Origin: Streptomyces sp. PCS3-D2
GTDB lineage: Bacteria > Actinomycetota > Actinomycetes > Streptomycetales > Streptomycetaceae
Assembly: GCF_000612545.2 (NCBI RefSeq)
Contig: NZ_CP097800.1
Location: forward strand, 3,449,001-3,513,000
DNA length: 64,000 bases
Direction: 5' to 3'
How positions within the stretch are numbered: the first letter of the stretch is position 1; each line of letters begins with the position of its first letter. The notes beneath the pieces were generated by a model. The model had not been told where the DNA came from. It was given only the letters and a program-made list of their open reading frames with translations, and did not search any database. The position numbers were made by a program, and so were the translations under genes. Below are positions 41,236 to 52,691 of the stretch, piece by piece.

Positions 41236-42081
41236 CTACGCCTGCCGCTCCGCGCCCGCGCCCAGCGGCGGCGCGGGCCGGCCCGGGTAGTCCGGGGGCG
41301 GGCTCAGCCGCTGGCCCGGCTGGCCGCCCTTCTCGTACTTGAGCAGCTTCTTCGCCTTCTCCGGGTCCGTCTCGCCCTCCCCGTACGCCGGGCAGAGCGG
41401 GGCGATCGGGCAGGCGCCACAGGCGGGCTTGCGGGCGTGGCAGATGCGGCGGCCGTGGAAGACGACCCGGTGCGAGAGCATCGTCCACTCGCTCTTGGGG
41501 AAGATCGCCCAGATGTCCGCCTCGACCTTCTCCGGGTCCTCCTGCTCGGTCCACTTCCACCGGCGCACCAATCGGCCGAAGTGGGTGTCCACGGTGATCC
41601 CGGGAACGCCGAAGGGGGTGTGCACATTAGCACCATGGTCAGGATCACCGGCCCGGCTGTCCTCACAGGCGCACGCGTTGCCGGTCACGACGAACGAGGT
41701 CTTCCGACCGACACCGGGGAGTTTCACCAGGTCGGCCGTGGTCTTGGGCACCATGCCGCCAAAGTCGGCCACGATCGCAGCGGCCAGTCCCGTGATGCTC
41801 CGAGTCTTGGCACGGAAGAACCCCGTGGGCCGGATCAGCTCCTCTACGTCCGCCGGGTCCGCCCCGGCAAGATCAGCGGGCCGGGGGTACTTCGCGAACA
41901 GCGCCGGGGTCACCTGGTTCACGCGTAGGTCTGTCGTCTGCGCGCTGAGCACGGTTGCTACCAACAGTTGCCACGCGTTCACGTGGTCTAGCTCGCAGTG
42001 CGCATACGGGTACACATCAGCAAGCGCACGGTTGATCTTCCGTGCCCGCCGAACGAGTGCTAGCCGGGTCTCTTCAGCCAT
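41236..42081 (-). CDS. nth: Endonuclease III, chimeric: element-encoded N-terminal half joined to host C-terminal half
   Basis: 281 residues. DNA glycosylase/AP lyase for oxidised pyrimidines. Residues 1-155 come from the inserted element; the rest is the host gene beyond the attachment core at 41609-41615. All working parts are present: the HhH motif LPGVGRKT with K127, D165 in GITVDTH, and the [4Fe-4S] cysteines in [17 protein letters not shown]. Against the displaced native copy, the element half lacks a 57-residue basic extension and carries about 17 extra residues (C137-T155) between the lysine and aspartate. The ATG at 42081 follows TACGCT by seven bases, suggesting a leaderless message from an element-borne promoter. 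Confidence 0.93.
41609..41615. repeat. Left attachment core
   Basis: CCGAAGG, with host sequence (GATCCCGGGAACG) on its left and element sequence (GGGTGTGCACATTAG) on its right. On the coding strand the core reads CCTTCGG, spanning Pro-Phe-Gly of Nth. Confidence 0.8.
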
Positions 42082-42148
42082 ACCGGCCAGCGTAAAGGCC
42101 CCGCCCATGCGCCATGGGGGAAGCGCACAGACGGGGCCGGAGGGAGCC

Positions 42149-42976
42149 CTACAGAGCCGCACTCAGCCTCTCGCAGACTTCGGCGCTGGTAGGCCGGTCA
42201 GCAGGCGAACGGCTGAGCATGTGAGGGATGAGTTCTCCCAGCACTCCGGGCATGTCCACGGTGCGGTGTGAGCGTGCCACGATGGCCCACCGCTGTTCCT
42301 CCCGGGAAGCGTCGTCCGGGTAGGCCACGTGCCGCCATCCCGTCGCGCTGATGAACAGTGCCGCCCCCAGTGCGTACACGTCCGCTTCCTGCGTCGGTGT
42401 GGCTGTGCCGGAGTCCAACACGCTGGCCGAGATTTCCGGCGCTTCGTAGTGGACGAGACACCCCCGGTACGGGAAGTCATAGGCGCGGGGAATTCGCCCC
42501 CCGCTGGACAGCGCAAGATCGATCAGGAACGCCCCGGCCGACTCCCCCAGAAGGAAATGCGCGGGCTGCACATCACCGTGCACCCATCCCATCCCGTGCA
42601 GCCCCGACAGAGCCACAGCGCACGACAGCGCCTCTCCGATGTTCGGCTCAGCCTTACCGTCCCGGCAGGGTGCCCACCGGTCATAGAGGCTGTCTCCCCG
42701 CCGCCACGGTTGAGCGCCCCACGTGCCGTGCTCCCACTCTCCGCTGAAAATCCGCTCATGCGTGAGCTGTCTCAGAACGGCGGCTTCACGGGCAGGGGCC
42801 AGCGCGGTCCACGCGTGCGTTCGGCTCGGATACCCCACCTTCACAGCGTACGGACCGGCCTCGGTCTTGACCTTCCACACGGACGACCCGCGCCGGTTGA
42901 GAACCAGTTCGGCGGGGCCCGGATTCAGGAGTTGCAGCGCACCGTCCGGCGGGCTGTACGGACCATCGCAAATCAT
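42149..42976 (-). CDS. Divergent Ser/Thr protein kinase-like protein
   Basis: 275 residues. Kinase landmarks in order: a VKV lysine (K46), HGDVQP at 133-138 in place of HRDLKP, IDLAL (D153) in place of DFG, and YEAPE as the activation-segment end. The loop lysine and asparagine are Gln137 and His140, so catalysis may be altered or absent. No membrane helix or PASTA repeats. Good ribosome site GGAAGGTG. It is likely transcribed with the three small genes to its right, which face the HTH/TPR regulator. Target unknown. Confidence 0.78.
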
Positions 42977-43054
42977 GCTTCACCTTCCAACAGCAAGGCC
43001 GGTTCCCGCAGTTGAGAACCGGCCCCACCCTCACCTGAACGGAACGGCCGGCGG

Positions 43055-43498
43055 TCAGGCGGCCCGGTAGTCCCGCCCACAGTCAGAGTCGCACTGTGCC
43101 GCGTTCGCGCCGTTCACGGTCCACAGCGAGTCCAGCACCATGAACCCGTTGGCCTTGATCGCGTGCGCGGTCGCCTGCACCTCCTCCAGGACCCGGCCGC
43201 CACCACCGGGGCGCGGGTTGTGCTCCAGGAACCGGCCCGCGTACTTCTCGCAGAACTCGCGGTAGTCGGCGGTGTGCAGGATGAACGAGTGCAGCGCACC
43301 GTCCACGTCGTCACTCGGGACCATCTTCACCGTGGCCGTGCCGACCGTGGCGACGAACGCGAGCGCCTGATCCGTGGCCCGCTCCGCCTTGTCGCGGTCG
43401 TAGCCGAAGTGCGTCACGGTGAACTCAGCGATGCTGTCGAACAGGTCCGTGCTGACCAGCGCGCGGCCGGTCCGAAGGTCGTTCGCGGTTGCCGTCAT
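43055..43498 (-). CDS. Unknown protein of the kinase/regulator module
   Basis: 147 residues, soluble, with aromatic and acidic central region (HSFILHTADYREFCEKYAGRFLEHNP), a glycine run, and a C-terminal pair of cysteines (CDSDCGRDY) that might bind metal. Ribosome site AAGGAGG. ATGA overlap with the preceding small gene. I recognise it only as a type of small protein found near HTH/kinase pairs in Streptomyces; function unknown. Confidence 0.7.
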   Translation of the reverse strand: MTATANDLRTGRALVSTDLFDSIAEFTVTHFGYDRDKAERATDQALAFVATVGTATVKMVPSDDVDGALHSFILHTADYREFCEKYAGRFLEHNPRPGGGGRVLEEVQATAHAIKANGFMVLDSLWTVNGANAAQCDSDCGRDYRAA

Positions 43499-43671
43499 GG
43501 CTTTGCCTCCTTGTGGTGGATGAGCTGTTCCGCAGCGAGCCGAACGAGGACGGGGGCCGCACGTCTTATGGCGGCCTCCCACTCCCGGGCCTCCCGCTCC
43601 GCGAGGATGCGCACCAAACCGGCGTCGATCTCCGCGCGCTGTTCCGGGGTGAACCCGGGAACCCCTCTCAC
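43495..43671 (-). CDS. Small helical protein
   Basis: 58 residues from a GTG at 43671 with GGGAG upstream; body FTPEQRAEIDAGLVRILAER is strongly helical. It overlaps both neighbours (GTGA upstream, ATGA downstream), which argues that it is translated. It may be a small partner or regulator. Confidence 0.62.
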   Translation of the reverse strand: MRGVPGFTPEQRAEIDAGLVRILAEREAREWEAAIRRAAPVLVRLAAEQLIHHKEAKP

Positions 43672-43919
43672 ATCCGCTCCCTTATCCGCTGGCTCGTGTT
43701 CGCGGTGACCACAGCGGTACTGAGCGCGTCGGACTGGTAGGCGGGCCGCAGGCTCGACGGGTCCGCTTCCCACTCCCGCCCACCGTTCAGCGGGCGGAGT
43801 TGGTAGCGCGGTCCCACGTGGCCCATGACGCGGCCCACTCGGCCCGTGGAGACGTCCAGCGCCGTTTCCCCCGCCTCCCAGTCCCGGGGGTGCTCACGTG
43901 CGCTCTCAGGGCTGCTCAT
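43668..43919 (-). CDS. Small protein, first gene of the kinase-side operon
   Basis: 83 residues. The central segment DVSTGRVGRVMGHVGPRYQLRPLNGGREWEADPSSLRP looks like a short beta barrel (KOW/SH3-like), as seen in many Streptomyces small proteins beside HTH regulators. The ATG at 43919 has GAGGTGCAGCC upstream. Its stop overlaps the next start. Function unknown. Confidence 0.68.
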   Translation of the reverse strand: MSSPESAREHPRDWEAGETALDVSTGRVGRVMGHVGPRYQLRPLNGGREWEADPSSLRPAYQSDALSTAVVTANTSQRIRERM

Positions 43920-44050
43920 GGCTGCACCTCTCGTGTTCGTTCGGCTGCTCACAGAAGGCAACCGCGTAACCACAGCCGAGAGGTACCGTTGCAACAGCGC
44001 CAGGACTTAAGAGCTTTAAGCGGCTTGAAGACGCGGGGAGTTGATGACCG
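43920..44050. promoter_or_regulatory. Divergent promoter region between kinase-side operon and HTH/TPR regulator
   Basis: 131 bases separating oppositely transcribed operons. It contains AT-richer AAGAGCTTTAAGC at 44010-44022, a likely promoter/operator zone for autoregulation by the regulator. No perfect long palindrome was seen. Confidence 0.4.
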
Positions 44051-45391
44051 GTGACCAGCCCCAACGAGGCACTTGCCCGACTGCACCGGGAAACCGGGTG
44101 GACGCTCCGCCAGTTCGCCCAAGAGGTCAACAAGCTGGGGACCGAGCGGGGAACGCCCCTCAAATACCGAGAGCCTTCCGTGCACCAGTGGCTCAACGGG
44201 CACATGCCGAAAGAGGCCGTCCGCCCGCTGATCTTGGAAGCGCTGGCCCGGAAACTCGCCCGTCCCATCACGCACAGCGAGGCAGGATTCCCGCCCCCTC
44301 CCGCCGAAGAGTCCAGCGCGCTCCCCAGTACCGTGGAAGGACTGCTAGACCTGGGGAGGCAAGATATGGACCCGTCGCGCCGGAGCGTGCTCGGAGTAGG
44401 TCTGTTTTCTGTCGCCCTCACCGTGCCAAATTGGCCGGACGTGGTTGGCCGAATGGAAGTCGCCCAAAGGGGCGAGACACAGCGCATCGGCATGTCCGAC
44501 GTTCAATCGGTCATTGCGATGACCGAACGGTTGTCAGATATTGACGACCAATTCGGCGGACGAACAGCGCGGCCGATGGCTGCTGCCTATGTGGTTAATA
44601 CCGTCGCCCCCTATCTGCGCGCTGATGCCCCGGGGGATATTCGCAAAGCGATGATGGCCGCCGCCTCCGATCTCTCATATCTCACGGGATATATGGCGGT
44701 GGATGAGGGCGTGCACGGAATGGCTCAGCGCTACTACCTGAAAGCGCTGGAACTCGCCGGGGCTTCCGAGGATCACCTAACGTTCTGCACCACCCTCCGA
44801 GGAATGAGCGTTCAGGCCGTAGACCTCGGACACGGGGCCGAAGCATTGCGACTCGCAGACGCTGCCGCCGCCGCTTCCCCGCAGGCCGGTCCTCGAATGC
44901 GCGCTTTCCTCGCCGGACAGCAGGCACACGCAGCCGCGCAAGAGGGAAACCGGCGCATGGCTCTACAGCGCATCAGGGAAGCCGAGACGGCCATGGAAAA
45001 GGCCGAATCGCAGTCGAAGACTTTCGGGTCCTATAACCCTTCCTCGCTGGCATATCACGTGGGTCAAGTGCGCTACCAACTGGGAGACGTAGCGGGTTCC
45101 ATCGAATCTCTCAAGGAATCGGATCGGCTACGTCCCAGCACGTTCCGGCGGACGAGTATCCGCTATTTGTCCATGCTGGCCGAACGGCAACTAGAGGTTG
45201 GCCACTTGGAGGCGGCGTGCGAGACGTGGGGGCGGGTCTTGGAGATATACCCCCTGGTGCAGTCCGGGCAGTGCGATCGAAACCTAGCCGCCATGCATAG
45301 CCGGATTCGCCCGTACCTGAAGAACCACACTGCCCGTGACTTGTTCGAGCGGGCCCGACTCGTGACACCTTCGAACCTGCTACTCCACTGA
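44051..45391 (+). CDS. Xre-type HTH transcriptional regulator with TPR domain
   Basis: 446 residues from a GTG. The N-terminal 75 residues form an HTH (LARLHRETGWTLRQFAQEVNKLG..YREPSVHQWLNG). From about 150 to 430 follow helical repeats of TPR type (for example AQRYYLKALELAGAS, QLEVGHLEAACETWGRVLEIYPL). Such actinobacterial regulators sense a ligand or peptide with the TPR part. Placed divergently from the kinase-like operon, it is the best candidate for the element's master regulator. Confidence 0.85.
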   Translation: MTSPNEALARLHRETGWTLRQFAQEVNKLGTERGTPLKYREPSVHQWLNGHMPKEAVRPLILEALARKLARPITHSEAGFPPPPAEESSALPSTVEGLLDLGRQDMDPSRRSVLGVGLFSVALTVPNWPDVVGRMEVAQRGETQRIGMSDVQSVIAMTERLSDIDDQFGGRTARPMAAAYVVNTVAPYLRADAPGDIRKAMMAAASDLSYLTGYMAVDEGVHGMAQRYYLKALELAGASEDHLTFCTTLRGMSVQAVDLGHGAEALRLADAAAAASPQAGPRMRAFLAGQQAHAAAQEGNRRMALQRIREAETAMEKAESQSKTFGSYNPSSLAYHVGQVRYQLGDVAGSIESLKESDRLRPSTFRRTSIRYLSMLAERQLEVGHLEAACETWGRVLEIYPLVQSGQCDRNLAAMHSRIRPYLKNHTARDLFERARLVTPSNLLLH

Positions 45392-45548
45392 ATCTGACGG
45401 ACCGTCAGGAACTACCTCGGTACCTGCCACTGCCTGAGATTCGAAGGGGGCCGATTCCCTTGCAATCTCGGGCCCGAGGGTACCCAGCATCCCGCAGCCG
45501 GCCAGACTTCCCGCCTTTCTTTCGAAGGTACCACCGGGGACGCACAAA

Positions 45549-45590
45549 GCCCCCGACGACCAACCCACAGCGGGGCCAGTCATCGGGGGC
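45549..45590. terminator. Bidirectional terminator between convergent element genes
   Basis: Stem GCCCCCGA/TCGGGGGC with a 26-base loop containing further pairing, located between the regulator (plus strand) and the 137-residue protein gene (minus strand). Confidence 0.6.
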
Positions 45591-45595
45591 CAGGA

Positions 45596-45619
45596 CCACA
45601 CCTTGACGTTTAGGTGTGG
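45596..45619. repeat. Inverted repeat sharing a motif with 48278-48290
   Basis: CCACACCT, 8-base loop, AGGTGTGG. The loop side carries ACGTTTAGGTGTGG, whose complement CCACACCTAAACGT recurs at 48278. It spans the stop codon of the 137-residue protein gene and may help end transcription or bind a regulator. Confidence 0.5.
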
Positions 45620-46023
45620 TCGGCGGTCATGCGGACAGCGCAACGGGTAGACCAGCGGAGCGCAGGCAAGTGCAACACTGACGACTCAAGCGGCGGCACA
45701 CCAAACCCGATAAGCCGTGTCGAATACAGCGGCAAAGGTGCACGGTAAGTGTGGCGGAATCTCATGGACCGGAACCAATCGTCAATTGCGTGATCCCGGT
45801 TCATCTCGGCCATCATCACGGCATAATCCGGCCCGCTGAAATACGTTGGGGAAAGTTCCCGGTCCGTAATCCAGTCGGCCGCATCCTCGCTGTAAAGGCT
45901 TGCCGCCTCGGGGTGTTCACTGAGTACGCCACGCACAACAGCGGGAGTAGGGGCGCACATGCCTAGCAGGCGTTCCACACGGACCGGCAACGGGACAGCG
46001 GCGGAGTAACGGCGGCGGCTCAT
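45610..46023 (-). CDS. Unknown element protein
   Basis: 137 residues, beginning MSRRRYSAAVPLPVRVERLL. Basic N-terminus, acidic centre (SEDAADWITDRELSP), aromatic patch (WFRSMRFRHTYRAPLPLY). No known motif found. Its ATG overlaps the stop of the TerS-like gene (ATGA), so the two are coupled. In phages the gene after TerS is often the large terminase; this is far too short and lacks Walker motifs. Confidence 0.65.
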   Translation of the reverse strand: MSRRRYSAAVPLPVRVERLLGMCAPTPAVVRGVLSEHPEAASLYSEDAADWITDRELSPTYFSGPDYAVMMAEMNRDHAIDDWFRSMRFRHTYRAPLPLYSTRLIGFGVPPLESSVLHLPALRWSTRCAVRMTADHT

Positions 46024-46379
46024 CCTCGGTTCCCCCATCGGGCGCGGGCAGCCTTTCGCGCTGCATCACTGCGGGCCTTAGACGCTACGGCCTCGGTCAT
46101 GTCGATAACCTCGGCGGCCGTTTCACGCGGCAGGCTAAGCGACTTGAGTAGCGCCATAAACGTCTTGCGGTGCTTATCCGCCTGCTCTAGTGCGGGATTG
46201 ATCTGCGGACCGTAACGCCCTTGCACAATTGCACCGTGTTGGGCGATGGCCGATTCCATGAGATCGAGTTCATCGAGAATGCGGGCGGCCTGATCAACGA
46301 TGCGGGCATGATCCGGGTCAAGGTCGAAAGTGTCCGCAATCTCGTCACGGAATGCAGTCGATCGGCTAGTTTCGGACAT
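46020..46379 (-). CDS. Phage terminase small subunit-like protein
   Basis: 119 residues. The segment VDQAARILDELDLMESAI..GAIVQGRYGPQINPALEQADKHRKTFMALLKSLSLP has the order of helices and the NPxLxxxxxxRxxFxxLLxxLxLP signature of actinophage small terminases, the DNA-recognition subunit that marks genomes for packaging. The tail is Ala/Arg-rich (RKAARARWGNRG). Ribosome site AAGGAGGTGCC. An HNH gene precedes it, as in many HK97-type phages, but no large subunit follows. Confidence 0.65.
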   Translation of the reverse strand: MSETSRSTAFRDEIADTFDLDPDHARIVDQAARILDELDLMESAIAQHGAIVQGRYGPQINPALEQADKHRKTFMALLKSLSLPRETAAEVIDMTEAVASKARSDAARKAARARWGNRG

Positions 46380-46477
46380 GGCACCTCCTTACGGTGCGTA
46401 GAGGTTTGCTGGAGCTGGGAGCGATGCGAGCACGCATCCAAACGACGGCTATACGCTTGCGATCCGGAAAGGGGCCG

Positions 46478-46494
46478 AAAGGGGGTCACCCCCC
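46478..46494 (-). terminator. Short hairpin downstream of the HNH gene
   Basis: GGGGGTGACCCCCTTT on the minus strand: a 5-bp GC stem, three-base loop and a short T-run, about 100 bases past the HNH stop. Confidence 0.45.
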
Positions 46495-46586
46495 ACCCCT
46501 CCGATCACCTTCCGTAACCCCAGCCGGCCGTCACGTTCTGTGAAATTCGAGCCGATCTCAGAGATTTGCGTCACTCGCACCATTGG

Positions 46587-46898
46587 TCACCATGGGTCGG
46601 GCGAGGACTCTCTAGCCCTCCGGTCTATATGCGTTCTCAAGCGGGGCCCTCTCGCTGTTGCTGCCTCGGCTTGCGTCTTCCTGGTGTGGTGCCATCGGCA
46701 AAGCAACTGGAGATTGTCAAGGGCATGGTTATCACCCGGGGCTATGTGGTCAACGTCTGTGCCCGATTCCCCGCAGCGTTGGCCGGTATCGAGTAGGACG
46801 GCCTCACAGCGACCCCCGGCACGTCGAATGACCCGCTGCCGCAGCTTTGCCCAGTTGGCCGGTAGGCGGGAACGTCGATTACTGGTCTCCCATGCCAT
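46587..46898 (-). CDS. HNH endonuclease, phage type
   Basis: 103 residues. Short basic HNH nuclease: CEAVLLDTGQRC and a later LLCRWHH contribute zinc ligands; DVDHI, an asparagine in DNLQLL and the HHxxK end form the HNH active site. Small HNH proteins next to terminase genes are needed for packaging-linked DNA cleavage in several phages. The ATG at 46898 follows AAAGGA. Confidence 0.88.
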   Translation of the reverse strand: MAWETSNRRSRLPANWAKLRQRVIRRAGGRCEAVLLDTGQRCGESGTDVDHIAPGDNHALDNLQLLCRWHHTRKTQAEAATARGPRLRTHIDRRARESSPDPW

Positions 46899-46960
46899 AA
46901 GCGCGGGTCCTTTCTCGCGAAGCGGGGCCGGTGGTCCGGGCCGACCCCGCAAACGAATGC

Positions 46961-47788
46961 CTAATGGTTGTAGTTGCCATAAGGGCTCGCGTGCGTCATC
47001 GTCATTCGAGACGCCGCTAGCGCTTCCTGCCACTCTTCGTAACGCTGCTCGGCCAGCTCGGGCAGCGCATCGGCGATGGTGTCTAGATCCTCGGTTAGCA
47101 GGGTGCCGCCCTTGATTGGGTCATCGCTGAGCACGTACCGGCGAACCTCGCTAAGAGCCTCGCTCAGCTTGGAGTCGTTCCAACTACCGTGCCCCTGTCC
47201 GGTGAACACGCCCCCATGCGTGAGCTGATCGCCGTTGTACTCAATGGCGCGGACGGCATCGCCCAGCAGGTTGTCTAGCGTGAACTCGCCAAGCAGTCCG
47301 TACAGTTCGGACAGCGCTGGAATCTCTGTATCCAGGACCTTGAATGCGTTCACCGCAGCCTCGCGCCGCTTTAGGAATTCTGCCGAAACAGCCGCGCGAT
47401 ACTCGGTGATGAACTTGCGGTCATCAAACAGCGCGTCATACGCCTTACGTGCGGCCACCAATCGCGGGAGGTTATCCCGGTAGGCGCGCAGCGTCCCGTC
47501 AACGGCTAGCTTGGCATCCTGCACCTTTGAACCCAGACCGGCCGGAGCAGCCTTTCCGGTATCAGCAGCGCGCGCATAAGCGGCGACAGCCTCTAGGCGA
47601 GCCTCCTCGGCGGCCTCGGCCCGCTCGTAATACAGATCGGAAAGCCGACCCATCTCGCTGACAACGGCCTGTAGGTCCTGCCAACGATCCTCGGCCGCCT
47701 TCGGCGCTAGGACCCCATGACGCTTGTTGCGCATCATGAATGCATGGTTGGAAGTAACTAGATCTTCTGGTGTGGTGATCTCGGTCAT
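46961..47788 (-). CDS. Unknown, mostly helical element protein
   Basis: 275 residues with a ribosome site GAGGAG. Long helical stretches (for example 25-75 rich in Glu/Ala: YYERAEAAEEARLEAVAAYARAAD, written here by position 50-75) suggest coiled coils. No membrane helix, no enzymatic motif. Its position beside HNH and TerS-like genes would fit a scaffold- or capsid-related protein, but nothing in the sequence proves it. Lower GC than neighbours outside the element. Confidence 0.7.
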   Translation of the reverse strand: MTEITTPEDLVTSNHAFMMRNKRHGVLAPKAAEDRWQDLQAVVSEMGRLSDLYYERAEAAEEARLEAVAAYARAADTGKAAPAGLGSKVQDAKLAVDGTLRAYRDNLPRLVAARKAYDALFDDRKFITEYRAAVSAEFLKRREAAVNAFKVLDTEIPALSELYGLLGEFTLDNLLGDAVRAIEYNGDQLTHGGVFTGQGHGSWNDSKLSEALSEVRRYVLSDDPIKGGTLLTEDLDTIADALPELAEQRYEEWQEALAASRMTMTHASPYGNYNH

Positions 47789-47813
47789 TTGGGTATCTCC
47801 TCGGCGGGTTAGT

Positions 47814-48104
47814 TCAGAGCCAGGGGGCGTGAATGCGGTTGAAAATTCGCGCGGCCAGTTCCTCAGGGTCAATCTCCGCCACCGGTTCACCCTTGGCCCG
47901 CACTGCCTCTAGTTCGGCTTCATGCTTTAGCGCGCGCTCCTCGTAAACGCTCAGCATCATGTCGTTGTGGCTGACAGCGGAGGATGCGGCCCGGTGCTCC
48001 GTTAGTAGGCGGTCGACATTCCCAGTCGAACCCTGCTGCATTCGCGCTGTATTGAGGCGGGAAGTAGAACCCTGACCCTCGGTCGTAATGTCCCATGTGG
48101 TCAT
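47814..48104 (-). CDS. Small unknown element protein
   Basis: 96 residues, polar, with a helical centre (SVYEERALKHEAELEAVRAK) and a C-terminal acidic helix ending IFNRIHAPWL. AAAGGA upstream of the ATG. Twenty-five bases upstream of the 275-residue protein gene on the same strand, so probably the same transcript. No function assigned. Confidence 0.65.
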   Translation of the reverse strand: MTTWDITTEGQGSTSRLNTARMQQGSTGNVDRLLTEHRAASSAVSHNDMMLSVYEERALKHEAELEAVRAKGEPVAEIDPEELAARIFNRIHAPWL

Positions 48105-48126
48105 GGGGGATTCCTTTCAGATACGC

Positions 48127-48183
48127 AAAAGGGCCCTCTTGCTCGCCGGATCTCTGCTCAGATCACAGCGGGCAAGAGGGCCC
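48127..48183 (-). terminator. Intrinsic terminator within the element
   Basis: Stem GGGCCCTCTTGC/GCAAGAGGGCCC (12 bp, 29-base loop) followed on the minus strand by TTTTGCG. It separates the zinc-knuckle genes from the HNH/TerS-like operon. Confidence 0.7.
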
Positions 48184-48277
48184 ATCGGGGAGGAGTACGC
48201 CGACTATGCGCACGTGACTACAACTCGCCCAAGAATTAAGGGGATGCGGGAGCAGCCGCAGCGTGTGGGGACGTCAA

Positions 48278-48296
48278 CCACACCTAAACGTTTAGG
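48278..48296. repeat. Palindrome CCTAAACGTTTAGG and shared motif
   Basis: A perfect 14-bp palindrome at 48283-48296, preceded by CCACA so that CCACACCTAAACG matches the complement of 45607-45619. It is in the 460-base gap 48105-48564, which otherwise holds the terminator to its left and no convincing gene. Candidate operator. Confidence 0.5.
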
Positions 48297-48564
48297 CGTG
48301 CCGACGGGCGGACCGGCCGAGGAGAGACGACCGGCCACGCGCCGACTGAAGGGAAGAACACCGAGGTTCACCAGAGGCGAGAGGAAACACCCACATGGTC
48401 CAGAGAGTGAGTTCGTAAAGGCCAAAGATGGATAGCTTCGGAATTCCGGCACCCGGCAGCCATTCGTTGCCTAACCGTGACGGCCGGCTGGGAGCGCCCA
48501 AAGGGCTAGACGCCTCTCTAAGCGGCTATCTCTGCCCCGCTGACACTCGGTACCGGCTTACCCA

Positions 48565-48978
48565 TCAGCGGCTGCCAGAAGCGCGCTCAGCGGCCTTACG
48601 TAGGCGGTACGCCTTTTGCTTGTGGGCATTGGAACAGAACCGGCGCGGTGCCCCGACTCCATCCCATCCGGTATTCGCCTCGCATCCATCCAAATCACAG
48701 ACAGCGTCGTAACGCCCACCCTCGGCCTCTCGCTGTGCACCAGCGGAACAGTTCGCATTGCAATACTTCTGAGTGGCCGTGCGTGGGTCGAAGGCATCTC
48801 CGCAGTGCGCGCAGTCGCGACCTATCAGCCGGTCCAGGTAGTCAGCATCGGTCAGCTTGGCCGCGCGCTTACGGGCCTGTCGGCATCGCTCAGAACAGAT
48901 GATTTCTTGACGTCCCCTTAGTGGCCCGTCGCAGACAACACAGCGGCCGTCCGTGGTCTCCCATGGGTAGTACGACAT
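48565..48978 (-). CDS. Multi-zinc-knuckle protein
   Basis: 137 residues with three cysteine modules: CVVCDGPL..ICSERCRQ, CAHCGDAF..YCNANCSA, and CDLDGCEA..RFCSNAHKQKAYR. Each looks like a treble-clef/knuckle of the kind found in phage and plasmid small DNA-binding proteins. The third module resembles the single module of the 88-residue protein upstream. Likely nucleic-acid binding; start ATG at 48978 with weak ribosome site. Confidence 0.72.
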   Translation of the reverse strand: MSYYPWETTDGRCVVCDGPLRGRQEIICSERCRQARKRAAKLTDADYLDRLIGRDCAHCGDAFDPRTATQKYCNANCSAGAQREAEGGRYDAVCDLDGCEANTGWDGVGAPRRFCSNAHKQKAYRLRKAAERASGSR

Positions 48979-49138
48979 TCTGGGGTTTCTCGCTTCGGAG
49001 TAGGGGTGTGTGTCGAGTGCTGTTTCCGAGGTTCGGTTTTGGCTAAGCCTAGGAAACCCTTAGAGACCCACCTTGCTAGGTACATACACTCTTCAATACG
49101 TAACAGAGATAGAAAACTAAGAAGAAAGAGAGACTGGC

Positions 49139-49405
49139 TCAGCCCTCCCGCTGTACCCGCTTGGCTCGGTACGCGCGCTTCTTGCAAGCCTCCCCGCAGT
49201 AGACACGTGGGCGGCCGGTAATCGGCTGAGTCAGTGCATTGCCGCAGCTCACGCATACGCCGTCGGGGGTTTTCGCTGCCTCGGCCTGTAGGGCTATGGC
49301 AATCCTTCGGTGCGTCTCCTCTGCCCTGCTCACGCCCTTTCCGAGGGTTTCCCACAGAACGGACTCGGCCTCACGGAGCAAGGAAATTAGCTCTTTCTTG
49401 GTCAT
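49139..49405 (-). CDS. Single-zinc-knuckle small protein
   Basis: 88 residues. An N-terminal helical half (MTKKELISLLREAESVL..) and a C-terminal CVSCGNAL..RVYCGEACKKRAYRAKR knuckle. Ribosome site AAGGAAC. It is preceded by the 32-bp repeat array at 49422-49549, which may control it. Possible excisionase or regulator, not provable here. Confidence 0.7.
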   Translation of the reverse strand: MTKKELISLLREAESVLWETLGKGVSRAEETHRRIAIALQAEAAKTPDGVCVSCGNALTQPITGRPRVYCGEACKKRAYRAKRVQREG

Positions 49406-49421
49406 GGTGTTTAGTTCCTTT

Positions 49422-49549
49422 CGGGGACAGGGGTGCATCCCTAAAGTTGAATGCGGGGACATTCTGGTATTCATAAACAGGGTTCCGGGGACAACGGAGA
49501 TTCCCTAAAGAGGGTTGCGAGACTTAGCCTGTCCCCGAAAGTCCCTAAA
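49422..49549. repeat. Three 32-bp direct repeats plus an inverted half-site
   Basis: CGGGGACA begins at 49422, 49454 and 49486, exactly 32 bases apart, each followed 17 bases later by CCCTAAA or a variant (49439, 49471, 49503). An inverted TGTCCCCG at 49530 and another CCCTAAA at 49543 close the array. It is in the 5' region of the 88-residue gene. Iteron-like or operator array. Confidence 0.75.
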
Positions 49550-49559
49550 CTCTGGGAAG

Positions 49560-49592
49560 AAAAACCCCCGCCAGTGAAAGACGAGGGTTTTT
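49560..49592 (-). terminator. Terminator after the 60-residue protein gene
   Basis: AAAAACCC/GGGTTTTT stem with T-run on both strands, 20 bases beyond the stop of the minus-strand gene. Confidence 0.7.
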
Positions 49593-49611
49593 CGGAAGGG
49601 GGGCGGAATGC

Positions 49612-49794
49612 CTATGCAGCCTTTTCGGCGTAACCGATCAGCAGCGAGAGGCGGGCCGCCTGTAGGTCCGGCGAGTTACCGAGATTCGCGCGGAAGACCC
49701 GAACGAGTCGGCCGCGCTTGGTTCGGGGCTCTGCCGCCCACGCGTCCATTCGCGCGCTGAGCGTTTCCAGGTCGAGTGTGTTCGTGATGGGCAC
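49612..49794 (-). CDS. Small 60-residue element protein
   Basis: 60 residues from a GTG with GGGAGG seven bases upstream. Helical, ending QAARLSLLIGYAEKAA. It lies between the integrase and the repeat array on the same strand as both neighbours, a usual place for a recombination directionality factor or its regulator. Function unknown. Confidence 0.55.
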   Translation of the reverse strand: MPITNTLDLETLSARMDAWAAEPRTKRGRLVRVFRANLGNSPDLQAARLSLLIGYAEKAA

Positions 49795-49937
49795 CGCGCT
49801 ACCTCCCTGCTGTTTCTCCTTGGCGGTTTCAACGTCCAGAGAGGCAGCCTGTAAAGAGCGATTTCTGACTAGCCGTCAGCTATGCCAGCCGACCGTTCCC
49901 GCCCCCGCCCCTGTGTGGCCGTCTGCGGGCGCGAGAG

Positions 49938-49970
49938 AGGGGCCCGGCGGGGTTATCCCACCGAGCCCCT
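49938..49970 (-). terminator. Terminator of the integrase gene
   Basis: AGGGGC-CCGG paired with CCGA-GCCCCT around a short loop, 32 bases after the integrase stop; no T-run. Confidence 0.55.
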
Positions 49971-50001
49971 GAAAGCCTCTCAGCGCGCCTGACAGGCCGC
50001 C

Positions 50002-51786
50002 TCAGTCCTCCGTCTTGACGTCGTCCGAGGGCCGTACAAACTCGATCTCGATTCGCTCGCTCACGTCGTACCCGCCGCGCACTCGGCCAGCGTGCGGGTT
50101 GTCGGTCGCCTTGACCGTGATCCGGCGGACGAACAGCTCAACGAACTTTCGCCGGTCCGCCAGTTCAACCCTCGCCCACCATGAGCCCTCGCCCAACGGG
50201 TCGCCGTCGTCGGCCCCGTCCAACCACTCATCGAACGGGAGTTCCAGGGTTTCCGGGTCGGCCAGTTCCTCTAGCCGCTTGTCCGCTGCGCTGAGTCGAG
50301 CCTCAATCCGCGCCTTCTTCTCCTTGAACCGAGCACGCCCCATGGTCCCCTCGTAGAGACCGGCGTCTAGGTCGTCGTAAAGGTCGCTCAGCGCGTTGTT
50401 CGCGTCGGCCCGCTCGGTCACCACCTCGGTTCGCTCGGCGGCCGTCTCGGGCTTCTCGACGGACCGAGAGAAGACCCGCGTTGCCTCGGCCACGATCTCC
50501 AGTGCGTCACTGTCCGCTGTGCCGACTGTCACGCTCTGAATGAGCGCGAAGATCCGCCGGGCGATGTGGTCGTCAAGGTGGCTTTGCATCACGCGGTTGA
50601 GTCCCGAGTGCTCGCCGTTGGTCGCAACGGTCGTCCCGCGAGTGCACAGATAGATCGGCTTGGCCCCGCTGTTCTGTGCCTTGCCGGGTCGGCCACACTC
50701 GCACGTGAGGACCGGCGTACGGGGTGCGCTGCGGAGACCGGAGAGCAGAGAGGTTCCGCGCGCCACGCCCTCGCCCTGGCCCCGACCGAGGAGCCAATCC
50801 CGGATGACGAACCACTGAGCCGGGGGAATGATCGGCTCACAGATCATCTCGGGTCGGCCGTCCTCATCCCGGATGATCCGGTACCCCTCAAGCGTGCTGC
50901 TGCGCGTGCCGTTCTCCCGGACCTTGTAGATCGGCTCAGCTCGCATACCAGCGATGGCGGGGTTGAGGAGAATCCACTTGAGCGTGCGCACCTGCCATGT
51001 GGAGTTCTTCCGCTCCTTCCCCTTCCGCTGGCCACGCGTCGGGATGCGCCGCGCGTTCATGTCGTCGCACAGCGCGGAGAGGGTGCCCGGGTTCCGCTGG
51101 CCAGGCTTGCGGGTGACCGGGTCGTGCATGTGCTTGATGATCAGCGCGCCGATCCGGCGGAGGTTCGCAGTCTCGCCCTTGTTGTGGACGAGACGCATGA
51201 GCGTGAGCTTGCCCTCTACGTACGACTCAGCGTCGAGACCGTACGGCGTCTGTCCCCCGAGCCATGAGCCCGCCGCCCGCTGTGCTGCCTTCACGTCGCG
51301 GACCTTCTTGGACTTGACGGCCGACTCCTTGTTGGCGGCGTCCAGCCGCATGATCAGGTAGATCAACGCCATGGTGTCGCGGGGGGCGAATACCCCATCA
51401 CAGACGCTCACGATGGTGACGCCGAGCGTGTGCAGTTCGCTGACGATGGGGATGGCATCCATCACTTCGCGGCGGGAAAAGCGGCTGACGTCGTAGACCA
51501 CCAGCATGTTGAACGCGCCAGCGCGGGCGGCCGTGAGCATGGCCTCAAAGCCGGGGCGCTCAGCCTCAGGGTTCCAGCCGGAGACGCCGATGTCCTCGTA
51601 GTGCCGGACGAAGCGCGCGTTCAGCTCAGCGGACCGGGTCTCGTTGGCCGCGCGCTGAGTAAGAGGGGATGCCTCGGTCTTGTTGGTCTTGGCCGAGGAC
51701 TGCCGTACGTAGCTGACGGCGACGGCCTCACGGGCCGGGGCAGAGAGGAAGCTAGCCGGAACGTCGGCAAGCGGGGTGGTGACCAC
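50002..51786 (-). CDS. int: Large serine recombinase (phage-type integrase)
   Basis: 594 residues. N-terminal resolvase catalytic domain with the nucleophile S30 in SYVRQS and arginines in YDVSRFSRR. A recombinase domain and a zinc-ribbon remnant (CECGRPG..YLC) follow, then a long coiled coil (about 440-520) as in phiC31-class enzymes. It cuts and rejoins attP and attB without host factors, and needs a directionality factor to excise. The GTG at 51786 follows AGGAGACAAGGC. It sits 158 bases inside the right attachment core, the normal place. Confidence 0.95.
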   Translation of the reverse strand: MVTTPLADVPASFLSAPAREAVAVSYVRQSSAKTNKTEASPLTQRAANETRSAELNARFVRHYEDIGVSGWNPEAERPGFEAMLTAARAGAFNMLVVYDVSRFSRREVMDAIPIVSELHTLGVTIVSVCDGVFAPRDTMALIYLIMRLDAANKESAVKSKKVRDVKAAQRAAGSWLGGQTPYGLDAESYVEGKLTLMRLVHNKGETANLRRIGALIIKHMHDPVTRKPGQRNPGTLSALCDDMNARRIPTRGQRKGKERKNSTWQVRTLKWILLNPAIAGMRAEPIYKVRENGTRSSTLEGYRIIRDEDGRPEMICEPIIPPAQWFVIRDWLLGRGQGEGVARGTSLLSGLRSAPRTPVLTCECGRPGKAQNSGAKPIYLCTRGTTVATNGEHSGLNRVMQSHLDDHIARRIFALIQSVTVGTADSDALEIVAEATRVFSRSVEKPETAAERTEVVTERADANNALSDLYDDLDAGLYEGTMGRARFKEKKARIEARLSAADKRLEELADPETLELPFDEWLDGADDGDPLGEGSWWARVELADRRKFVELFVRRITVKATDNPHAGRVRGGYDVSERIEIEFVRPSDDVKTED

Positions 51787-51867
51787 GCCTTGTCTCCTAG
51801 GGGTCTGGATGGACCCCTACGGGCCACCGTCCCTAGGTAGAGAGGCGTGTCGTAAAGACCGTGGGAC

Positions 51868-52509
51868 CTAGGTGATCAACTCGTAGGCGTTGCTCACCCT
51901 GGCCCCGCCGATGCCTCCCGACCGTAGTACCGGTGTGGGAAACCCGAAGGCGTTGCCGAGGACCACGTTGGCGGTCTTGCGGCCCACGCCCGGCAGCTTG
52001 ACCAGGTCCTCCAGCCGGCCCGGCACCTCGCCGCCGTGGTCGTCCCGCAGCGCCTGCGAGAGGCCCAGCAGCGACCTGGCCTTCATCCGGAAGAACCCGG
52101 TCGGGCGGATGAGCTCCTCCAGATCCTCCGGAACGGCCGCCGCCATGTCCTCGGGGGTCGGATAGGCCGCGAAAAGGGCCGGGGTCGTCTGGTTCACCCG
52201 CAGGTCGGTGGTCTGTGCGGACAGCACCGTGGCGACGAGCAGCTCGAAGGGATTGCGGAAGTCGAGCTCCGGATGGGCGTACGGGTAGATCTCGGCCAGC
52301 TCGCGGTTGATGCGGCGCGCCCGGCGCACCATGGCCAGGCGGGATTCCGGCTTGGCAGCCCTCGGTTTCTTGGCCGAAACTTTGCCCTGAGGGCCGGTCG
52401 CACCCTTCGGAGGGACCCTCGGGGGCACTTGTTCGCCCACAGCTGAATTCGGGGTGTCCGTCACTCCTACGGACCCCTTGGCCTGTGCTCTCACCGGCTT
52501 ATTGGACAC
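51868..52509 (-). pseudogene. Displaced native 5' part of nth
   Basis: Native Nth residues 1 to about 190 from a GTG at 52509, including the 57-residue Lys/Pro/Ala-rich N-terminal extension and LPGVGRKT, up to GNAFG at the right core. Past the core the frame runs into element sequence and ends after 24 foreign codons. It keeps the catalytic lysine but lacks the aspartate and the iron-sulphur cysteines, so it should be inactive as a glycosylase. It retains the native promoter region facing crp and may still be expressed as a 213-residue protein. Confidence 0.9.
51944..51950. repeat. Right attachment core
   Basis: The second CCGAAGG, with element sequence (CCGGTGTGGGAAAC) on its left and native nth sequence (CGTTGCCGAGGACC) on its right. 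The flanking GGGAA is partly shared with the left site. Short imperfect cores are usual for large serine integrases. Confidence 0.8.
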
Positions 52510-52691
52510 CCGGCCAGCCTAAGGCCGGGCGCCGGCACCCGCCCGGACCTCTGGTAACACCACTCCGATTGGCCTCTCGCCGCACAGCATGCCCGTCCGT
52601 CCGGCATCCTTGTGATTGATCGCACTGTTTGAGCCGTCCGGCAAAATGGGGAGCACGGTCCCCTGAGCTGGTCGACATAGGAGAGAGACTC

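Follow-up and report, generated by a model that had tools for sequence, protein, structure and literature searches.

Restoring the gene into which it inserts is a known strategy of mobile elements. The SXT/R391 integrative and conjugative elements (ICEs), whose integrase is of the tyrosine type, supply a new 5′ end and promoter to prfC. Their integration into the 5′ end of this conserved protein gene is described in a passage of PMC4344509. In Bifidobacterium, prophages with a tyrosine integrase enter dnaJ2 through a 35-bp site at the 3′ end of the gene, which is reconstructed after integration (excerpts of PMC6109161). Here we analyze a window of 64,000 nt from Streptomyces sp. PCS3-D2 (contig NZ_CP097800.1, positions 3,449,001 to 3,513,000; all coordinates below are those of the window), in which an element with a serine integrase interrupts nth, the conserved base-excision-repair gene for endonuclease III, and very probably rebuilds it in frame as a hybrid by means of a 5′ half of its own. 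This is the known strategy in a new form, unusual for serine integrases, and the initial annotation was right to single out the replacement of a target gene half on that account. No case of insertion into nth was found in the open-access literature searched, and the main text of PMC8547433 has no passage on such a case.

Serine integrases commonly use attachment sites (attB) in coding genes, and the result is mostly described, in the portions of the literature consulted, as disruption. The authors of PMC4701971 state, in one section, that every insertion of 29 serine-integrase ICEs disrupts a gene, and describe for streptococcal serine ICEs how int and rumA trade 3′ parts with a change of frame. 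Mycobacterial insertions are called likely inactivating or unclear in passages of PMC9934374 and PMC10654092, the latter of which also presents serine-integrase candidates for phage-inducible chromosomal islands (PICIs) in Mycobacterium. The integration of phiJoe is described in part of PMC5311408, and an excerpt of PMC3218068 reports a serine actinomycete ICE (AICE) that disrupts an endonuclease gene in Frankia, a case possibly worth re-examining. Like the SXT/R391 ICEs, the nth element occupies a conserved protein gene, but it has a phiC31-like serine integrase, cuts its target in mid-gene, replaces well over 100 codons and carries an attP arm that would be translated. Whereas the dnaJ2 prophages, as far as the excerpts go, act at the 3′ end of their target, here the N-terminal half is replaced; and while the nth element shares with the rumA ICEs, as that section portrays them, a serine integrase that exchanges gene ends, it differs in that the target is rebuilt in frame.

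The interrupted nth locus and its relatives

The integrated element extends from 41609 to 51948, 10,335 bp from core to core. Read along the minus strand, the host nth 5′ half starts at 52509 and is cut at the attR core TTCGG (51944-51948, minus strand), where, in the sense of nth, the host arm lies upstream and the element arm downstream; the resulting orphan frame (51868-52509, minus strand) runs 24 codons past the core to a stop. A large serine integrase of 594 aa (50002-51786) begins 81 nt after this stop on the same strand and is followed by about 8 kb of small open reading frames (ORFs) and then by a second nth 5′ half, starting at 42081. This element-borne 5′ half (el5; 41614-42081, minus strand) continues in frame across the attL core TTCGG (41609-41613, minus strand), with the element arm upstream and the host arm downstream, into the host nth 3′ part (41236-41608, minus strand), which ends at 41236. 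The resulting chimeric gene (41236-42081, minus strand; 281 aa) is the only full-length nth match in the genome: used as a query, it returned its own locus as the sole match at E ≤ 1e-90, with all 21 candidates scored.

Pfam and junction analysis both reveal the two nth 5′ parts and single 3′ part around a serine integrase that had been proposed from the letters of the sequence. The HhH-GPD domain is found in the native 5′ ORF (51868-52509) and in the ORF containing the chimera (41236-42162, minus strand), and the EndIII_4Fe-2S motif is present in the latter and absent from the former. El5 and the native 5′ half are 70.7% identical over 133 aa, in keeping with the divergence noted earlier. The integrase has Resolvase (PF00239) and Recombinase (PF07508) domains, both above the Pfam cut-off, matches phrog_95 (integrase) in PHROGs, and shares 41.2% identity with phiC31 Int and 36.7% with that of TG1 over 95-96% of the query. 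The initial annotation gave the core as 7 bp, which is true of the window copy, where CCTTCGG is common to both junctions, but not of the family, in which only the 5-bp TTCGG is constant. A short core common to attL and attR, with attP and attB non-identical, is what characterizes large serine integrases.

Joining the host flanks in silico at the core yields a single open nth frame, as the initial annotation had held that excision should. The joined flanks align without a break to the element-free relative G042 (G and L labels are our identifiers for compared genomes and for loci or contigs, respectively) at 93.9% identity over 2,427 bp, with four small gaps. Left unjoined, the left end matches G042 only up to the core, and the element half at the other end reaches no more than about 69%. 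In the eight element-free relatives examined, the site reads GNA(F/Y)GVPG.

The same arrangement recurs in other strains. A scan of genome contigs returned nine integrase loci, six of them at 61-79% identity to the window integrase, and in these six loci and the window, which make up all seven strains found at an integrase identity of 60% or more, int is directly preceded by a host nth 5′ half. The chimeras of the six other genomes are 76-89% identical to that of the window, and the frame across TTCGG is open in them also. The two ends are linked in six of the seven strains, over 10,335, 10,136, 10,005, 35,700, 39,681 and 40,172 bp; in the seventh, G397, the chimera lies on a separate contig. 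The pairing of this integrase with nth fragments on both sides, which the initial annotation proposed to look for, is thereby found well beyond the window. Within the genus, the integrase is matched at E ≤ 1e-100 in 17 of 393 genomes (its own included) and at 60% identity or more in three (its own, G006 and G224); the attL motif occurs in four of 393 Streptomyces genomes (these three and G359), and a reversed control pattern gave no matches. A class-wide draw of 394 genomes gave no integrase match at E ≤ 1e-100 besides the genome of origin, and no nth half was found within the 1.5-kb flanks of 14 integrases at 39-44% identity. Separately, in G160:C100 and G323:C466, a phiC31-like integrase (43% identical) and an nth that seems complete lie 5-6 kb apart, which may indicate a further attB in the vicinity.

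Two viral contigs, L085 (7.3 kb) and L089 (taken from a contig of 38.8 kb), have el5, the attP core and int in one contiguous stretch, and the host nth 3′ part was not found at the junction in either; this is the uninserted arrangement. Four viral records in which el5 was not found begin at int and are uninformative on this point. In a phage collection, 19 records match el5, at no more than 63.5%, and unlike phiC31 and TG1 none of these 19 is a Streptomyces phage.

From these observations we propose that the phiC31-like integrase recombines attP, at the 3′ end of el5 and directly upstream of int, with an attB that lies within nth (TTCGG core, in the codons ...GNA-FG-VPG...). A single crossover would cut the host gene, leave its 5′ half adjoining int and, at the same time, fuse el5 in frame to the 3′ half of the host gene, el5 bringing its own start and probably a leaderless promoter. 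The product would be a hybrid endonuclease III with about 20 extra attP-side residues in the loop before the catalytic Asp, and excision would give back the native nth. The integrase is predicted to be active and the chimera to be transcribed from the element; a working hybrid would make insertion into a conserved gene a low-cost event.

The predicted hybrid endonuclease III and its putative promoter

The chimeras differ from native Nth in one insert of fixed length. Between GN and FGVPG there are 21 residues in 7/7 aligned chimeras versus one in eight natives; the alignment covers seven of eight chimeras, leaving out L075, whose 5′ half is identical in protein to that of L078. The extra 20 codons (41614-41673, minus strand) lie between the HhH and VDTH motifs, and the core-proximal ones are the left attP arm. 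This side of attP encodes the insert: the chimeras have in common the arm CCATGGTGC(T/C)AA-GTG, and the viral copies L085 and L089 have CCGTAGTGCTA- -GTG at the insert arm. The attP-side DNA would accordingly be read as protein, adding exactly 20 residues beside the active site. GVGRKT, TVDTH and C-x6-C-x2-C-x5-C are all kept in 7/7 aligned chimeras, which bears out the claim that catalytic and iron-sulphur residues are restored; K120 and D138 of E. coli Nth presumably fall in GVGRKT and VDTH. With phmmer, the chimera parts flanking the insert align to endonuclease III proteins of solved structure. That the insert might bind metal through a CxC motif was considered and dropped, since L085 and L089 lack this motif. 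In another genus of the family, the native Nth proteins of two loci (L095 and L101) have 8 additional residues (GNARDPKTGEPFGVPG) at this position, which indicates that the loop tolerates a change of length.

Selection on el5 provides a further line of evidence. Among element halves, the ratio of nonsynonymous to synonymous substitution rates (dN/dS) is 0-0.25 (45 pairs), and el5 appears to be under purifying selection. As it would be useful as a protein only when fused, such selection points to a working hybrid, and the hybrid endonuclease III is predicted to function. In a tree of 50 N-terminal halves, whose bootstrap is not fully settled, the ten element copies group in a single clade (100/99), separate from the 40 native rows; the host halves of strains that carry the element, five of the seven being in the tree, all fall among the natives. 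The motif pattern failed for 4/26 genus natives, 4/17 family natives and 2/7 host 5′ halves (G393 and G395), which the tree leaves out. The 13 integrases of the window kind, some of them near-identical, fall in a single clade (100/100), which includes the four viral records that begin at int and in which nth is not visible.

Each nth start in the window is preceded by a −10-like hexamer. TACGCT (42089-42094, minus strand), 7 nt before the chimera ATG, may mark a leaderless promoter, and TAGGCT (52516-52521, minus strand), likewise putative, stands 6 nt before the native GTG; TAGGCTGGCCGG-GTG precedes the native gene. The pattern TA[GC]GCT-n7-ATG is found upstream of 8/8 chimeras, which suggests leaderless transcripts from a captured promoter, and a strict pattern of the leaderless kind fits 11/26 native loci. 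In 6/6 linked elements the start of int follows the orphan nth stop by 76-100 nt on the same strand, so that integration probably changes which of the two nth promoters reads into int.

One genome appears to have kept the hybrid after losing the element. G359, a draft at 99% completeness, has a single nth match at E ≤ 1e-8 among 51 candidates, all scored, and this match is a chimera (L082, G359:C21, 10099-11412) that also has the attP-derived insert and an element-clade 5′ half. Upstream, the order is host flank, native promoter motif, native nth beginning, a stretch of about 350 bp that matches neither reference, and the element half; no integrase was found in the 32 kb around the chimera. 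Because of the attP insert, the element-clade half and the remains of the native promoter and start, we read G359 as a derived element-loss scar. The initial annotation had named an element-free relative that bears the chimera as an observation that would refute its own reading; that the chimera is the ancestral state was rejected, however, on the tree of N-terminal halves and the native-start remnant. Most of the element seems to have been lost, leaving the hybrid as the sole nth seen in this genome, and G359, provided that it is correctly assembled, would then be a natural test showing that the cell tolerates the hybrid.

The constant position of int invites another reading of el5, namely that it is kept mainly as a promoter or leader for int and that gene repair is a by-product: int would stand behind el5 in the circle and behind the host nth promoter once integrated, and its placement on the same strand after the truncated nth stop in every linked element, and about 65 nt after the stop in both viral contigs, would suit such a role. 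We regard this as unlikely, because a promoter role would not hold some 128 codons at the dN/dS values observed, nor would it keep the insert at one length with an open frame. The same selection, together with the conserved motifs, the open chimera frames and G359, whose only nth match is the chimera, makes it improbable that insertion does no more than disrupt host nth, with the chimera as a by-product of gene-fragment capture that lacks any function, even though the insert is near the active site and coding genes are commonly disrupted by serine-integrase elements (sections of PMC4701971 and PMC9934374). Tandem duplication could yield two nth 5′ halves, and the locus might then hold no site-specific element, with a partial duplication or a horizontally acquired nth lying by chance near a serine recombinase; to this we give practically no credence, as the TTCGG junction recurs across strains, the viral contigs show the uninserted form and the flanks rejoin exactly. 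Chance duplication is ruled out by recurrence in 7/7 strains and by the free viral form.

We therefore hold with considerable confidence to serine-integrase insertion in mid-nth with an element-borne 5′ half that rebuilds a hybrid gene in frame, while several observations weigh against it. The 20-residue insert adjoins the active site and could impair the enzyme. The dN/dS ratios are rough, as many pairs are saturated in dS (with values up to 2.6), and the trees of integrases and element halves disagree in part on branch order. The G359 assembly is a draft in about 120 contigs, which makes misassembly at the scar possible. As to the promoter that the initial annotation ascribed to el5, the −10 motif is present and speaks for it, but a generic sigma-70 scan found no promoter; L085 and L089, judged by eye, lack the leaderless motif and start at the end of an upstream ORF, and promoter carriage may not be universal. 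The main claim of the initial annotation is borne out, although it included neither the 20-residue insertion nor the sharing of the module with full phages.

Element cargo and phage-sized relatives

Twelve ORFs of the window element were compared with PHROGs and Pfam, with a 60-aa ORF outside the PHROGs scan. One encodes a homologue of the small terminase subunit (TerS; 46020-46379, minus strand; phrog_1496, 1.1e-9), whose Pfam Terminase_4 match is below cut-off, and another a TPR transcriptional regulator (44051-45391, plus strand; phrog_10886). A protein-kinase-like ORF (42149-42976, minus strand) adjoins el5. No large terminase, portal or capsid match was found among the 12 ORFs with PHROGs, and no FtsK/TraB or Rep match of the AICE type with Pfam. 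At 10.3 kb, with a TerS and no recognized capsid set, the element has the anatomy of a phage satellite, and the window copy, as judged from its genes alone, appears satellite-like. It resembles the PICI type, again by gene content alone, in its size of about 10 kb, its integrase, regulator and small terminase subunit, and its lack of recognized structural genes, but differs in that its integration module also occurs in phages of 36-40 kb. Beyond a 16-residue match (E 0.38), nothing related to the window TerS turned up in L025, G006, G395 or the pirin elements described below; this includes the 10-kb elements of G006 and G395. L089 carries TerL (phrog_9), portal (phrog_12), TerS (phrog_83) and a DNA polymerase; the elements of G393, G396 and G224 have homologues of L089 phage genes, and many other G393 element proteins also have homologues in those of G396 and G224. 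The 36-40 kb members thus look like full phages, probably prophages.

The remaining cargo has relatives elsewhere. L025 (12600-15692) contains relatives of four window element ORFs and an HNH endonuclease beside a 40% identical integrase, which suggests that a cargo block moves between integration modules. Among these ORFs, one without a family (46961-47890, minus strand) has its relative in L025 beside that other phiC31-like integrase; a small Cys-rich ORF (48565-48978, minus strand) with a weak treble-clef match, below cut-off, has relatives in L025 and L021; and a second (49139-49474, minus strand) with weak phrog matches, one of HNH type, has a relative in L025. An inverted repeat with 23-nt arms (87%) and nearby direct repeats at 49409-49550 overlap the start of this last ORF and the region upstream of it, and perhaps form a replication or control site.

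Pirin elements and significance

A second target gene points to the same strategy. A duplicated part of pirin accompanies 3/14 other phiC31-like integrases, those of G068 (L111), G220 (L112/L006) and G125 (L116/L007), in elements of about 10-16 kb at a site that we take to be the phiC31 attB; int is adjoined by an orphan 3′ part, and a complete copy of the gene lies some 10.5-15.7 kb from it. These elements thus share with the nth element a serine integrase, an orphan piece of the host gene next to int and, at the opposite end, a complete gene. Behind a 5′ fragment of host pirin, the G068 element brings in a whole pirin that has a start of its own, whereas the nth element supplies a fused half; the G068 element carries RepSA and FtsK and is therefore AICE-like. 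No separate host 5′ fragment was matched in G220 and G125 at E ≤ 1e-40, for which recombination between the copies would be one explanation. In this duplicate-gene test, 4/14 integrases had less than 20 kb of downstream sequence, so that misses there mean little; G190 gave one weak match, 40% over 84 aa. Serine-integrase elements may thus have acquired target repair on more than one occasion.

It is about an even chance that Streptomyces serine-integrase elements have repeatedly evolved target-repair modules, be it an nth half with a coding attP arm or a spare pirin, that the host can keep the hybrid for good, and that nth and int promoters are exchanged in one step. The family also amounts to a natural split-protein experiment, in which a 5′ half with roughly 70% identity to that of the host, a host 3′ half and 20 added residues are apparently tolerated together. 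Some unusual annotations of nth may find their explanation here, and the family provides an integration system whose attB is predicted, as well as a means of asking whether DNA repair changes with lysogeny. The nth family shows a way round the cost of disruption that keeps a conserved base-excision-repair gene, and if this holds more widely, target-repair modules would let serine-integrase elements occupy conserved host genes.

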